A DNA stretch of 64,000 nt, from NCBI GenBank assembly GCA_018969015.1, contig JAGWZE010000003.1, positions 62,001 to 126,000 of the forward strand, given 5' to 3'. This document shows positions 3,152 through 53,953 of the stretch, piece by piece; within the stretch, counting starts at the first letter, position 1; every line of letters starts with the position of its first letter. The translations under genes were made by a program, and so were the position numbers. The DNA comes from Alphaproteobacteria bacterium. Lineage in GTDB: Bacteria > Pseudomonadota > Alphaproteobacteria > Caulobacterales > Aquidulcibacteraceae. The notes under the pieces were generated by a model. That model was not told where the DNA came from. It ran no database searches and worked only from the letters and a program-made list of their open reading frames with translations.

Positions 3152-3180
3152 GTGACGCCGCGGCGCACATCGTGTATCAT
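3152..3180 (+). promoter_or_regulatory. probable vapBC promoter
   Basis: GTGACG (3152-3157) and TATCAT (3175-3180) are separated by 17 bases and resemble a -35/-10 pair. The -10 overlaps the left arm of the palindrome described in the next entry. The predicted leader before the antitoxin ATG is about 20 bases. Confidence 0.45.
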
Positions 3181-3196
3181 TACGCCCTTAATGATA
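3175..3196. promoter_or_regulatory. palindromic operator of the vapBC pair
   Basis: TATCATTA (3175-3182) and TAATGATA (3189-3196) form a perfect 8-base inverted repeat around a CGCCCT spacer. It ends ten bases before the antitoxin ATG, just ahead of a GGGA ribosome-binding site. VapB-type antitoxins commonly bind such sites to repress their own operon, so this is inferred to be the autoregulatory operator. Confidence 0.65.
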
Positions 3197-3205
3197 GGGA
3201 CCGCC

Positions 3206-3460
3206 ATGCCGCAGGTCGTGACCATCAACCGCCCGGACGTCGTAGCGCTCATTGAAGCGGCCGCCGAGAAATTGACCCACGGCAACAAGACGGAAGCCGT
3301 CGCCCTGGCCATGAAAACGCTGCTGGAGGCGGATGCGCGGACCAGTCCCTTGTTCGGCGCACATCGCGGCTCAGTGCGGACCCTACCCGGCGTCGACCTC
3401 ACCCGGCCCACCCTCGAGACTGAGCCCGACGCGCAATCAGGACGCGAACTCGAACATTGA
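3206..3460 (+). CDS. vapB: type II antitoxin, VapB-like (Rv0623/PSK family)
   Basis: This 84-residue protein has an N-terminal segment (TINRPDVVALIEAAAEKL, then NKTEAVALAMKTLLE) that matches the ribbon-helix-helix-like domain of Rv0623/PSK-family antitoxins. The TEAV motif opens the second helix. The acidic, Gly/Pro-containing C-terminal half would be the toxin-binding tail. ATG 3206 has an AGGGA ribosome-binding site and follows the palindromic operator. The stop overlaps the toxin start by four bases (TTGA), the usual coupling that favours antitoxin excess. A small family protein of this kind is diverse, so the subfamily is less certain than the TA role. Confidence 0.82.
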   Translation: MPQVVTINRPDVVALIEAAAEKLTHGNKTEAVALAMKTLLEADARTSPLFGAHRGSVRTLPGVDLTRPTLETEPDAQSGRELEH

Positions 3461-3900
3461 GCCGATCGCGTCTTCTTCTCGACACCCACATCGTCCTTTG
3501 GCTCGATGCAGGCGACGCCGCGCTTCGACAGGACACGCGCGATCTCCTGGAAACCCATTGGCGCTCGGGCGGGAAGCTGTGTTTGAGCGCGATGACCGCT
3601 TGGGAAATTGCGCTCCTTGTCGATTCCGGGCGCGTCGAACTCGATGTGACGCCGGACGAGTGGCTCGCGCGCTTTTGCGCGCGCCCTGGCATCGAGATCG
3701 TCGAGCTTTCGCTGTCGGCTGCGCTTCGCGCCTACCCACTGACGGGGCTCCCGCAGCGCGACCCGGCTGATCGCCTTCTGATCGCGACGGCAATTGAACT
3801 CGGGTGTCCGCTCGTGACGTATGACGCGCGCATCCTCGCGTTCGCAAAGGACCACGGCGCCGCGATCGGCTTGGCAGCCATCGACAGGGACAACGTCTAG
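3457..3900 (+). CDS. vapC: PIN-domain ribonuclease toxin, VapC-like
   Basis: This 147-residue PIN protein begins with TTG inside the antitoxin stop (TTGA overlap). The four acidic residues expected in a PIN active site are visible: D9 in LLLDTH, E50 in AWEIALL, D105 (with D102) in RDPADRLLIATA, and D123 in TYDARIL. Members of the family cut specific RNAs, often tRNA or rRNA, when the antitoxin is degraded. The target cannot be told from sequence. The arrangement DTHIVLW near the N-terminus resembles the Sll0205-like PIN subgroup. The pair sits between housekeeping genes and could have been acquired horizontally. Confidence 0.88.
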   Translation: MSRSRLLLDTHIVLWLDAGDAALRQDTRDLLETHWRSGGKLCLSAMTAWEIALLVDSGRVELDVTPDEWLARFCARPGIEIVELSLSAALRAYPLTGLPQRDPADRLLIATAIELGCPLVTYDARILAFAKDHGAAIGLAAIDRDNV

Positions 3901-3922: not shown

Positions 3923-4606
3923 CTAGTTCATCGCCGCCGCGCGACGGGGCGCGGCGCGCAGCTCTTTCATGGCCGCGTCGATCCGCGCTTCCAGCCCGGC
4001 CCGCTCGGCGGGCGCGGCGAACGCCAGAAGCATCAGGGCCGCGCCATACCGCTGCTCGGCGGCCATGCGCAGGGCGGTGATGACGTGCGCGGTCCAGTCG
4101 AGATACGCGCCGCGGAACAAGTGGGCGAGCGCGGCGCCGAGTTGTTCGGGATCGGCCGTCGCGCGCAGACGCTTCTCCGCGACCGCCGCCGCCACGCGGG
4201 ACTGCCAGTACGCTGCGCGCGGCTCGTCGATCGCGGCGCGCATTTCCAGGGTCGGCGACCCGGCCCGCGCCATGTTGCGATAGAAGACCGGCTCGCGCTG
4301 GTAGAGGGCGGCCGCCAGATCCATGGCCACGAAGATCCGATCGAGCGCGTTGGCGGCCGGCGCGGCCTCGACGTCGCGCTGATAGGCGGCGAGGTCCTCG
4401 TCATAGACCTCGCGCAGGATCGCGTCCTTGGTCTTGAACAGGTTGTAGAGCGTGGCGGGGCTGACATCGGCCCGCTCGGCGATCTCCACCATAGATACGG
4501 CGTCGACCGACGTGGCCCGCGCCAACGCGGCGGCCGCGTCCACGATGCGGCGACGCCGCTCGGCCTTGCCCAGCTCCCGACGCGACGACACTCCCTGATC
4601 CGACAT
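3923..4606 (-). CDS. TetR-family transcriptional regulator
   Basis: This 227-residue protein has an N-terminal TetR DNA-binding domain (about residues 12-60): RRRIVDAAAALA, then the helix-turn-helix ERADVSPATLYNLFKTKDAI. The all-helical C-terminal part is variable and would bind a ligand. ATG 4606 is preferred because the longer ATG at 4672 would place codons across the palindromic operators. The gene is divergent from a MerR-thiolase pair. Two matching inverted repeats lie immediately upstream, consistent with autorepression and control of the neighbours. A lipid-derived or acyl-CoA ligand is a guess from context only. Confidence 0.88.
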   Translation of the reverse strand: MSDQGVSSRRELGKAERRRRIVDAAAALARATSVDAVSMVEIAERADVSPATLYNLFKTKDAILREVYDEDLAAYQRDVEAAPAANALDRIFVAMDLAAALYQREPVFYRNMARAGSPTLEMRAAIDEPRAAYWQSRVAAAVAEKRLRATADPEQLGAALAHLFRGAYLDWTAHVITALRMAAEQRYGAALMLLAFAAPAERAGLEARIDAAMKELRAAPRRAAAMN

Positions 4607-4622: not shown

Positions 4623-4638
4623 TTGGAGTGCTCTCTAA
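4623..4638. promoter_or_regulatory. TetR-type operator, site A
   Basis: TTGGAG-TGCT-CTCTAA is a 16-base inverted repeat with one mismatch. It lies about 17 bases upstream of the TetR start codon and has the same 6-4-6 layout as site B. Confidence 0.6.
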
Positions 4639-4652
4639 AGTCACTTGACTTG

Positions 4653-4668
4653 TTAGAGCGCACTCTAA
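4653..4668. promoter_or_regulatory. TetR-type operator, site B
   Basis: TTAGAG-CGCA-CTCTAA is a perfect 6-base inverted repeat with a 4-base centre. Its centre is exactly 30 bp from the centre of site A, about three helical turns. A TTGACT at 4645-4650 could be a -35 for the rightward MerR-thiolase transcript, which would put this operator in the promoter spacer. Confidence 0.65.
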
Positions 4669-4759: not shown

Positions 4760-5173
4760 ATGACCACTCGCCTCGAGGGCGCGCGCATCGCAGCCGCCTA
4801 TTCGATCGGCCAACTCTGCCGCGAGTTCGATCTCACCCCCCGGGCGCTCCGCTTCTACGAGGAGCAGGGCCTCCTGAAGCCCGATCGTCAGGGCCAGATG
4901 CGCGTCTATTCGCACCGCGACCGGACGCGCCTGGCGCTGATCGTGCGCGGCCGCCGCGTCGGGCTCTCCGTGGCCGACATCCGCGACATCCTCGACACCT
5001 ACGACAAGAACGGCGAAGCCGCGCAGAACGCCAAGGCGCTGCAGGTCTTCACCAAGCGCATCGAGGCGCTCGAGGCCCAGCGCAAGGAAGTCGAAGAGGC
5101 GCTGCAGACGCTGAAAGGCGCCGCCGCCCGCCTGACCCAGTCCCATTCCACCGCCGGCATCGCCGCGGAGTAA
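4760..5173 (+). CDS. MerR-family transcriptional regulator
   Basis: This 137-residue protein has a MerR DNA-binding domain. YSIGQLCREFDLTPRALRFYEEQGLL forms the winged helix-turn-helix at about residues 14-40, followed by RVYSHRDRTRL and the second helix pair. A dimerisation coiled coil runs from about residue 85 to 118. No cysteine metal site is visible, so it is not a classic metal sensor. Some MerR proteins of this size control fatty-acid or branched-chain amino-acid breakdown. The thiolase gene 36 bases downstream, probably in the same transcript, fits such a role. A GGAGGA ribosome-binding site precedes the ATG. Confidence 0.88.
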   Translation: MTTRLEGARIAAAYSIGQLCREFDLTPRALRFYEEQGLLKPDRQGQMRVYSHRDRTRLALIVRGRRVGLSVADIRDILDTYDKNGEAAQNAKALQVFTKRIEALEAQRKEVEEALQTLKGAAARLTQSHSTAGIAAE

Positions 5174-5209: not shown

Positions 5210-6382
5210 ATGAGTGCAGCTTACATCGTCGCCGCCGCGCGCACTGCCGGCGGCCGCAAGGGCGGTCGTCTCGCCGGATGGCACCCGGCCGATCTCGCCG
5301 GCAAGGTGCTCGACGCGCTCGTCGACCGCTCCGGCGCCGACCCGTCCGCGATCGAGGACGTCGTGCTCGGCTGCGTCGGCCAGGCCGGCGAACAAGCCTG
5401 CAACATCGCGCGCAACGCGGTGCTCGCCTCCAAGCTGCCCGAAAGCGTGCCGGGCACGTCGGTGGATCGCCAGTGCGGCTCCTCGCAGCAGGCGCTGCAC
5501 TTCGCGGCCGCCACCGTGATGAGCGGCGTGATGGACGTGGTCGTCGCCGCGGGCGTGGAAAGCATGAGCCGCGTGCCGATGGGCCTGCCGATCGCGCTGC
5601 CCTACAAGAACGGCATGGGCTTCTACGTGAGCCCGGCGATGGCGGCGCGTTATCCCGGCATCCAGTTCAGCCAGTTCGCCGGCGCCGAGATGATCGCCAA
5701 GAAGTACGGCTTCACGCGCGACCAGCTCGACCGCTTCGGTTACGAGAGCCACAAGAAGGGCGCGGCCGCCATCAAGGCCGGCGCGTTCGGCGAAGAGATC
5801 GTGCCGATCGAGATCACGCTCGCGGATGGCGCCAAGGACACCCACCTCGCCGACGAAGGCGTGCGCTATGACGCCACGCTCGAAGGCATGGCGAACGTGA
5901 AGCTCCTGGCGGAAGACGGCGTCATCACCGCCGCCACCTCGAGCCAGATCTGCGACGGCGCCTCGGGCGTGCTCATCTGCAACGAAGCGGGCCTCAAGCG
6001 TCTCGGCGTCGCGCCGATCGCGCAGATCCGCTCGATGACGGTCACCGGCGGCGACCCCGTGATCATGCTCGAAGAGCCGCTGTTTGCCACCGACAAGGCC
6101 CTGAAGCGCGCCGGCATGAAGATCGACGACATCGATCTCTACGAGGTCAACGAGGCGTTCGCCCCCGTTCCGATGGCGTGGCTGCGCCACACGGGCGCGG
6201 ATCCGGACAAGCTCAACGTTCATGGCGGCGCGATCGCGCTCGGTCACCCGCTCGGCGCCTCGGGCACCAAGCTGATGACGACGCTCGTGCACGCGCTCAA
6301 GCGCCACAACAAGCGTTATGGCTTGCAGACGATGTGCGAAGGCGGCGGCCTCGCCAACGTGACGATCGTCGAGCGGGTGTGA
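5210..6382 (+). CDS. thiolase (acetyl-CoA C-acyltransferase)
   Basis: This 390-residue thiolase has the complete active site: nucleophile C89 in SVDRQCGSSQQAL, H346 in NVHGGAIALGHPLGASG, and the acid/base C376 in QTMCEGGGLAN. Family members either cleave 3-ketoacyl-CoA in beta-oxidation or condense acetyl-CoA; sequence alone does not decide between them. The gene lies behind a MerR regulator and a divergent TetR regulator, which favours a degradative, substrate-induced role. No other beta-oxidation genes lie in the window. Confidence 0.93.
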   Translation: MSAAYIVAAARTAGGRKGGRLAGWHPADLAGKVLDALVDRSGADPSAIEDVVLGCVGQAGEQACNIARNAVLASKLPESVPGTSVDRQCGSSQQALHFAAATVMSGVMDVVVAAGVESMSRVPMGLPIALPYKNGMGFYVSPAMAARYPGIQFSQFAGAEMIAKKYGFTRDQLDRFGYESHKKGAAAIKAGAFGEEIVPIEITLADGAKDTHLADEGVRYDATLEGMANVKLLAEDGVITAATSSQICDGASGVLICNEAGLKRLGVAPIAQIRSMTVTGGDPVIMLEEPLFATDKALKRAGMKIDDIDLYEVNEAFAPVPMAWLRHTGADPDKLNVHGGAIALGHPLGASGTKLMTTLVHALKRHNKRYGLQTMCEGGGLANVTIVERV

Positions 6383-6395
6383 CGCGAAGCGGATG

Positions 6396-6535
6396 ACCCT
6401 CTCCCCTTGTGGGAGAGGGTGGATCGCGCGCGGCAGCGCGCGAGACGGGTGAGGGGTGTCAGCGCGATCGTTTGCCGACTGAGGTTCACCCCTCATCCGG
6501 CGCTTCGCGCCACCTTCTCCCACAAGGGGAGAAGG
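6396..6535. repeat. long palindromic intergenic repeat (family A)
   Basis: Two strong hairpins stand at the ends: ACCCTCTCCC/GGGAGAGGGT (6396-6405, 6411-6420) and CCTTCTCCC/GGGAGAAGG (6513-6521, 6527-6535). The two ends are also complementary to each other, and internal blocks GGTGAGGGGT and ACCCCTCA match. The element fills the gap between two convergent genes and could end transcription in both directions, but no T-tract follows. A block GGCGCGAAGCGCC is shared with the element at 57179. Confidence 0.75.
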
Positions 6536-53826: not shown

Positions 53827-53953
53827 ACTCGCGCCCCACGCGGCCTGTCGCAGGGACCTCCCTTTTGGGAGAAGGCGACCGCATGGGCCGGATGATGGGC
53901 TCCGCCCCACGCCCCCTACGCGACACTTGCCCCTCTGGCCCTATATCCACGGC

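Follow-up and report, generated by a model that had tools for sequence, protein, structure and literature searches.

Genes and palindromes in the tetR-merR gap

The window analysed here is the whole stretch of 64 kb, and the region of interest within it is the 153-bp gap between the start codons of tetR (ATG at 4606-4604, minus strand) and merR (ATG at 4760). The genes and the features of the gap are given below, where TTASAGYGCRCTSTAA is a consensus refined from orthologues.

3923..4606, minus strand: tetR, encoding a TetR_N protein with KstR as its nearest solved relative
4623..4638, no strand: operator-like site 1, TTGGAGTGCTCTCTAA, two mismatches to TTASAGYGCRCTSTAA
4638..4651: inverted repeat AAGTCA-CT-TGACTT between sites 1 and 2, containing TTGAC (14-base core read by eye)
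4644..4649, plus strand: CTTGAC, likely -35 box toward merR-thiolase, with 3 bases between it and site 2 (TTGAC at 4645-4649)
4653..4668, no strand: operator-like site 2, TTAGAGCGCACTCTAA, exact match to TTASAGYGCRCTSTAA
4760..5173, plus strand: merR, regulator of the MerR family; the divergent pair starts with this gene
5210..6382, plus strand: acetyl-CoA C-acetyltransferase (thiolase), NF005077/PRK06504 subfamily, above cut-off

The tetR product matched TetR_N (PF00440) with 47.5 bits against a cut-off of 24, and its best-scoring solved relatives were KstR chains (E about 1e-7). Its score against the NCBIfam KstR model, 49.5 bits, lies below the cut-off of 280, and a single-sequence AlphaFold model (pLDDT 53.6, pTM 0.40) was too poor for a fold search. 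The merR product matched MerR_1 and MerR-DNA-bind. Considering the length of the gap, merR lies within the 200 bp by which a rule derived from streptomycete regulators (PMC3511530) recognises a divergent neighbour of a tetR gene.

An earlier, sequence-only reading had described two TetR-type palindromes of 6-4-6 form, 30 bp apart, between tetR and merR-thiolase, and both 16-mers are present in the gap, TTGGAG-TGCT-CTCTAA as site 1 and TTAGAG-CGCA-CTCTAA as site 2, with a start-to-start distance of 30 bp. The description of this distance as about three helical turns is fair without being exact, as 30 bp corresponds to 2.86 turns at 10.5 bp per turn. The arms of site 2 form a perfect six-base repeat and those of site 1 contain one mismatch (TTGGAG/CTCTAA). 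Between the two sites the arms differ at a single base, so that 11 of the 12 arm positions of site 2 are kept in site 1. Site 1 sits in the leader of tetR as an additional copy, 16 bases ahead of the start codon.

We compared the pair with shuffled sequences, defining a comparable pair as two palindromes with at most one mismatch in the arms, at most two differences between the sites and a distance of at most 60 bp. Such a pair appeared in 1 of 20,000 dinucleotide shuffles of the 153-bp gap, and at least one perfect 6-4-6 palindrome in 744 of 20,000. In the GC-rich window as a whole, the same definition returned 8 pairs, sites 1 and 2 included, against about 5.1 expected (1021 over 200 shuffled 64-kb windows); sites 1 and 2 were the only one of these pairs whose arms begin and end in T/A. 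Since palindrome pairs are not rare in the window when GC-rich arms are counted, the form alone is weak evidence outside the AT-richer gap, and the frequency of loosely defined pairs is what could be said for palindromes that arose by chance and have no function. The gap shuffles speak against this explanation, as does the retention of the motif ahead of tetR in genomes that belong to a different genus and a different family, and we consider it extremely improbable.

Conservation of the motif with tetR

The sequence-only reading would have been contradicted by absence of the motif upstream of orthologous tetR genes; the two nearest orthologues that we found carry one copy each. The site is TTGGAGCGCACTCTAA at locus L153, where tetR is 55% identical, and TTACAGCGCACTGTAA at L093, where it is 49% identical. 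In TTACAGCGCACTGTAA the fourth arm base is altered on both sides together, as symmetry demands, and this site is the only exact TTASAGYGCRCTSTAA match in its own genome (85% complete). Both single sites are counterparts of site 2, and no second site corresponding to site 1 was found upstream of tetR at either locus. These tetR genes keep the motif though they face genes other than merR-thiolase.

The tetR gene itself is sparsely distributed. With the window's own genome counted, the family yielded 2 carriers among 60 genomes (at 1e-15), a class sample 2 among 385 (at 1e-25) and an order sample 34 among 398 (at 1e-20); a second family belonging to the order yielded 28 among 390 (at 1e-20). For the class sample, the order sample and the second family, up to 7 candidates were scored per genome. 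Plasmid and phage collections contained no TetR match at 1e-8.

Both palindromes also lie upstream of merR, and site 2 stands beside a TTGAC box in the manner of MerR sites; accordingly, the palindromes could be sites at which the MerR protein regulates its own promoter. We examined 52 other merR relatives (48-70% identical), made up of 23 of 80 loci (L013-L035) and 29 loci fetched from a search that gave a match in 58 genomes, the whole-genome loci spanning about 1.5 kb on either side. None of the 52 has the motif within three mismatches in the 300 bp upstream, the best having four (L215), and their retrieved DNA contains no hit to the window tetR, as was also the case in an earlier set of 31 merR loci. 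Among 53 merR loci the motif thus occurs only at that of the window, and it is kept before tetR orthologues that face other genes, which indicates that it follows tetR. In addition, 10.5 bp separate the 3' end of TTGACT from the centre of site 2 (counted by hand); for the metal-resistance MerR subfamilies, the distance between the site centre and the 3' boundary of the -35 box is given as 7-8 bp (PMC5045206). Sites of the MerR protein are in our view very unlikely, and the palindromes are better regarded as TetR-type sites, as originally proposed.

Promoter layout and the proposed divergent switch

On the side toward the divergent gene, TTGAC precedes the operator by 3 bases in the window (spacer TTG) and by 4 bases at L153 (ATTC) and L093 (AAAT). 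The more distant relatives show AAAA before the weaker site at L155, a gap of 7 at L156 and TGAC-AAAT at L157. A scan with the sigma-70 consensus reported no promoter. The Caulobacter RpoD consensus is given as TTGaCgS and GCtANAWC (PMC8144410), and the far operator arm with its neighbours, GCTCCAAG at L153, GCTGTAAT at L093 and ACTCTAAT in the window, partly resembles its -10 element at 10-11 bases; these candidate -10 boxes are weak and were read by eye. Placing the -10 box under site 2 is conditional on this resemblance, in which case a bound dimer would cover both the spacer and the -10. Site 2 likely lies within a promoter toward merR-thiolase. The earlier assignment of one site to the -35/-10 spacer in this direction agrees with the position of site 2 just downstream of TTGAC and with the same layout at L153 and L093.

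Three features can be read from the DNA itself: the presence of the sites, the way they accompany tetR in the closest orthologues, and their arrangement next to TTGAC. These features suggest that sites 1 and 2 are putative operators of the adjacent KstR-like TetR in an autoregulated divergent switch, with a probability of roughly 85%. In the proposed mechanism, TetR bound as a dimer to site 2 would cover the merR-thiolase promoter over the -35/-10 spacer and probably over the -10 too; toward tetR, the same site would fall in the upstream portion of the promoter region. Site 1 would take up another dimer, which would cover the tetR leader. When no inducer is present, both directions would be off or low. 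TetR would be released by a ligand, for which a CoA thioester that the controlled genes metabolise is the most likely candidate. Control of both directions, as the sequence-only reading had it, is likely given operator behaviour of this kind and the position of site 2 beside a TTGAC layout that is kept in orthologues.

KstR senses CoA thioesters. The neighbours of the nearest orthologues are consistent with an acyl-CoA as the ligand of the window TetR too, as tetR at L153 and L093 faces or precedes CoA-type genes. At both loci it faces a TPP enzyme that resembles 2-hydroxyacyl-CoA lyase and acetolactate synthase, with scores under all of the cut-offs shown. In the wider L093 locus (L096) a PhyH gene follows the TPP enzyme and a CoA-transferase III gene follows tetR, and in the wider L153 locus (L182) an acyl-CoA dehydrogenase gene follows tetR. 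On the other hand, the neighbours in more distant clade members are not all CoA-type, the divergent genes there encoding a TonB receptor (L183), a nitroreductase (L185) and an MFS transporter (L186), with PhyH genes nearby in L183 and L185. The genome of the window has no close orthologue of the L153/L093 TPP enzyme, its relatives being only 30-32% identical.

The two sites need not be equally important. As L153 and L093 each have a single site, arranged like site 2, and as site 1 is asymmetric with two mismatches to the orthologue consensus, site 2 could be the only working operator and site 1 a weak or decaying duplicate. The distant relative L155 is the best parallel for the pair, with two sites 32 bp apart and TTGACA between them, although these sites have 3 and 5 mismatches to TTASAGYGCRCTSTAA and the second was chosen by eye and added by hand. 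This layout, by which operator doubling may recur, and the close agreement of the site 1 arms with those of site 2 argue against a single working operator, which we regard as rather unlikely. Two putative TetR operators are preferred here, and cooperation between them, which had been suggested from their spacing, is unsupported: the spacing is not constant among orthologues, considering the single sites of L153 and L093 and the weak pair of L155.

The operators tetO1 and tetO2 of Tn10 are likewise spaced by 30 bp. They resemble sites 1 and 2 in lying as two operators between divergent genes, in that case tetR and tetA, where one operator shuts both directions and the other mainly one; a paper on them states that there was no indication of cooperativity (PMC3037858). 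Their sequence and target are unlike those in the window. The operator of KstR (Rv3574), TAGAAC-N2-GTTCTA, is described as overlapping the -10 in the promoter of the regulator itself, between its gene and the neighbour fadE34 (PMC1995591). Site 2 shares with it the outer TAGA/TCTA and the position in the regulator's own promoter region, in the gap to a neighbour gene, whereas the core is AG-N4-CT in the window and AAC-N2-GTT in KstR, and one local target was found for the window TetR against the large KstR regulon. EdcR of Caenibius tardaugens is also an alphaproteobacterial TetR-like repressor; its palindromes are reported to overlap the -10 box in catabolic promoters, and the one at the regulator gene is less conserved (PMC8700777). 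Its operator TnnCnnTACnAnTnGTAnnGnnA is unrelated to the window sites, and its inducers are given as estrogens. Searches by motif fragments returned no report of a TetR operator among the titles and abstract beginnings covered, and the corresponding portions of the literature on Caulobacter TetR/acyl-CoA and on TetR/2-hydroxyacyl-CoA lyase/phytanoyl-CoA described no such operator. The operator sequence appears new, and the kind of switch, an autoregulated divergent TetR, would be familiar.

Genomic reach and operator types among homologues

The genome search that the sequence-only reading had proposed for defining a regulon found none. Within one mismatch, TTRGAGN4CTCTAA occurs in the 3.4-Mb genome (69 contigs) at sites 1 and 2 only, so that the switch at the tetR/merR-thiolase gap looks local. 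Allowing up to two mismatches gave 11 matches in the forward and 12 in the reverse direction, where a control motif read backward gave 42 and 46; fewer matches than in the control mean that there is no regulon-like excess. The sole further TTASAGYGCRCTSTAA match within two mismatches (C23:109097) was rejected as a target, as it sits inside the end of a long open frame (L127), and the single such weak match in genome G024 (L139) is found at the 3' terminus of a predicted ORF, with no shared target evident.

We compared the upstream regions of 68 tetR homologues, own gene included, these being the homologues with loci returned or fetched among all matches. The recognition helix contains T-[LVI]-Y in eleven of them. 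With one mismatch allowed, TTRSAGN4CTSYAA was found in 5 of these 11 (0.03 expected from shuffles) and in 0 of the 57 others (0.25 expected); within two mismatches the counts were 6 of 11 (0.54 expected) and 1 of 57 (3.17 expected). Fisher's test for the latter gave p = 2.8e-5, and the kinship of the sequences inflates such counts. The five T-[LVI]-Y homologues in which the motif was absent within two mismatches include L158, for which only 63 bp upstream were available. The exact KstR-type sequence TNNAACNNGTTNNA showed the opposite distribution, 9 of 57 others (0.06 expected) against 0 of 11, which is not significant alone (Fisher p = 0.34), and it was absent from the 300-400 bp upstream of the window tetR.

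In a tree of 46 of the 68 sequences, from which 22 with T-P-Y or T-S-Y had been dropped for thinning, the T-[LVI]-Y sequences together with L154 split from the rest with support of 100/99, and the three carriers of exact TTRSAGN4CTSYAA form one clade with the same support. The new motif as a label requires 4 changes, as few as in 68 of 500 shuffles, and hence is not more clustered than shuffled labels. The KstR-type label (nine carriers) requires 1 change, which no shuffle of 500 reached, with 26 sequences in no group left uncounted.

As a tentative joint reading, rather less probable than the switch itself, the KstR-like TetR group may be split into AG-N4-CT and AAC-N2-GTT operators, tracked by one residue (T-L/V/I-Y-N-L-F or T-P-Y-N-L-F), and in this genome the regulator may have acquired merR-thiolase as its partner in place of 2-hydroxyacyl-CoA-lyase-like genes, together with a second operator. 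We hypothesise that the recognition-helix residue itself causes the operator difference. The analysis supplies a candidate operator for an uncharacterised group of KstR-like repressors, along with a natural clade pair for studying the change of DNA specificity in TetR proteins, and the operator may aid the assignment of a function to the lone thiolase. Beyond the operator sequence and the clade pair, the locus would be a routine local switch.

Several further observations were made. Twin sites occur outside the clade of the window too, at other spacings: the tetR homologues of L160, L165 and L223 each have two exact TNNAACNNGTTNNA upstream, 74, 74 and 104 bp apart. The window merR shares 59-70% identity with the listed Phenylobacterium copies and 43-57% with those from other genomes of its own family, so that the former are nearer, and a second merR in the same genome (C2:29797) is 53% identical to it. 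Upstream of the merR relatives at L191, L192, L201 and L216 we saw a palindrome-like TTGACG-N4-CGTTAA or CGTAAA, 69-86 bases before the match, which resembles LiuR-type sites; inspection of the window gap by eye showed none. Adjoining tetR, a small ORF followed by a PIN-domain protein (3152-3900) resembles a VapBC-type toxin-antitoxin pair, and the scanned portion of the small ORF (3206-3457) gave no Pfam match. Just 3' of the thiolase gene (6404-6528) lies an inverted pair of elements that contain CCCTTGTGGGAGA and are presumably REP-like, and a third such element, a copy with one mismatch, is found at 53860.
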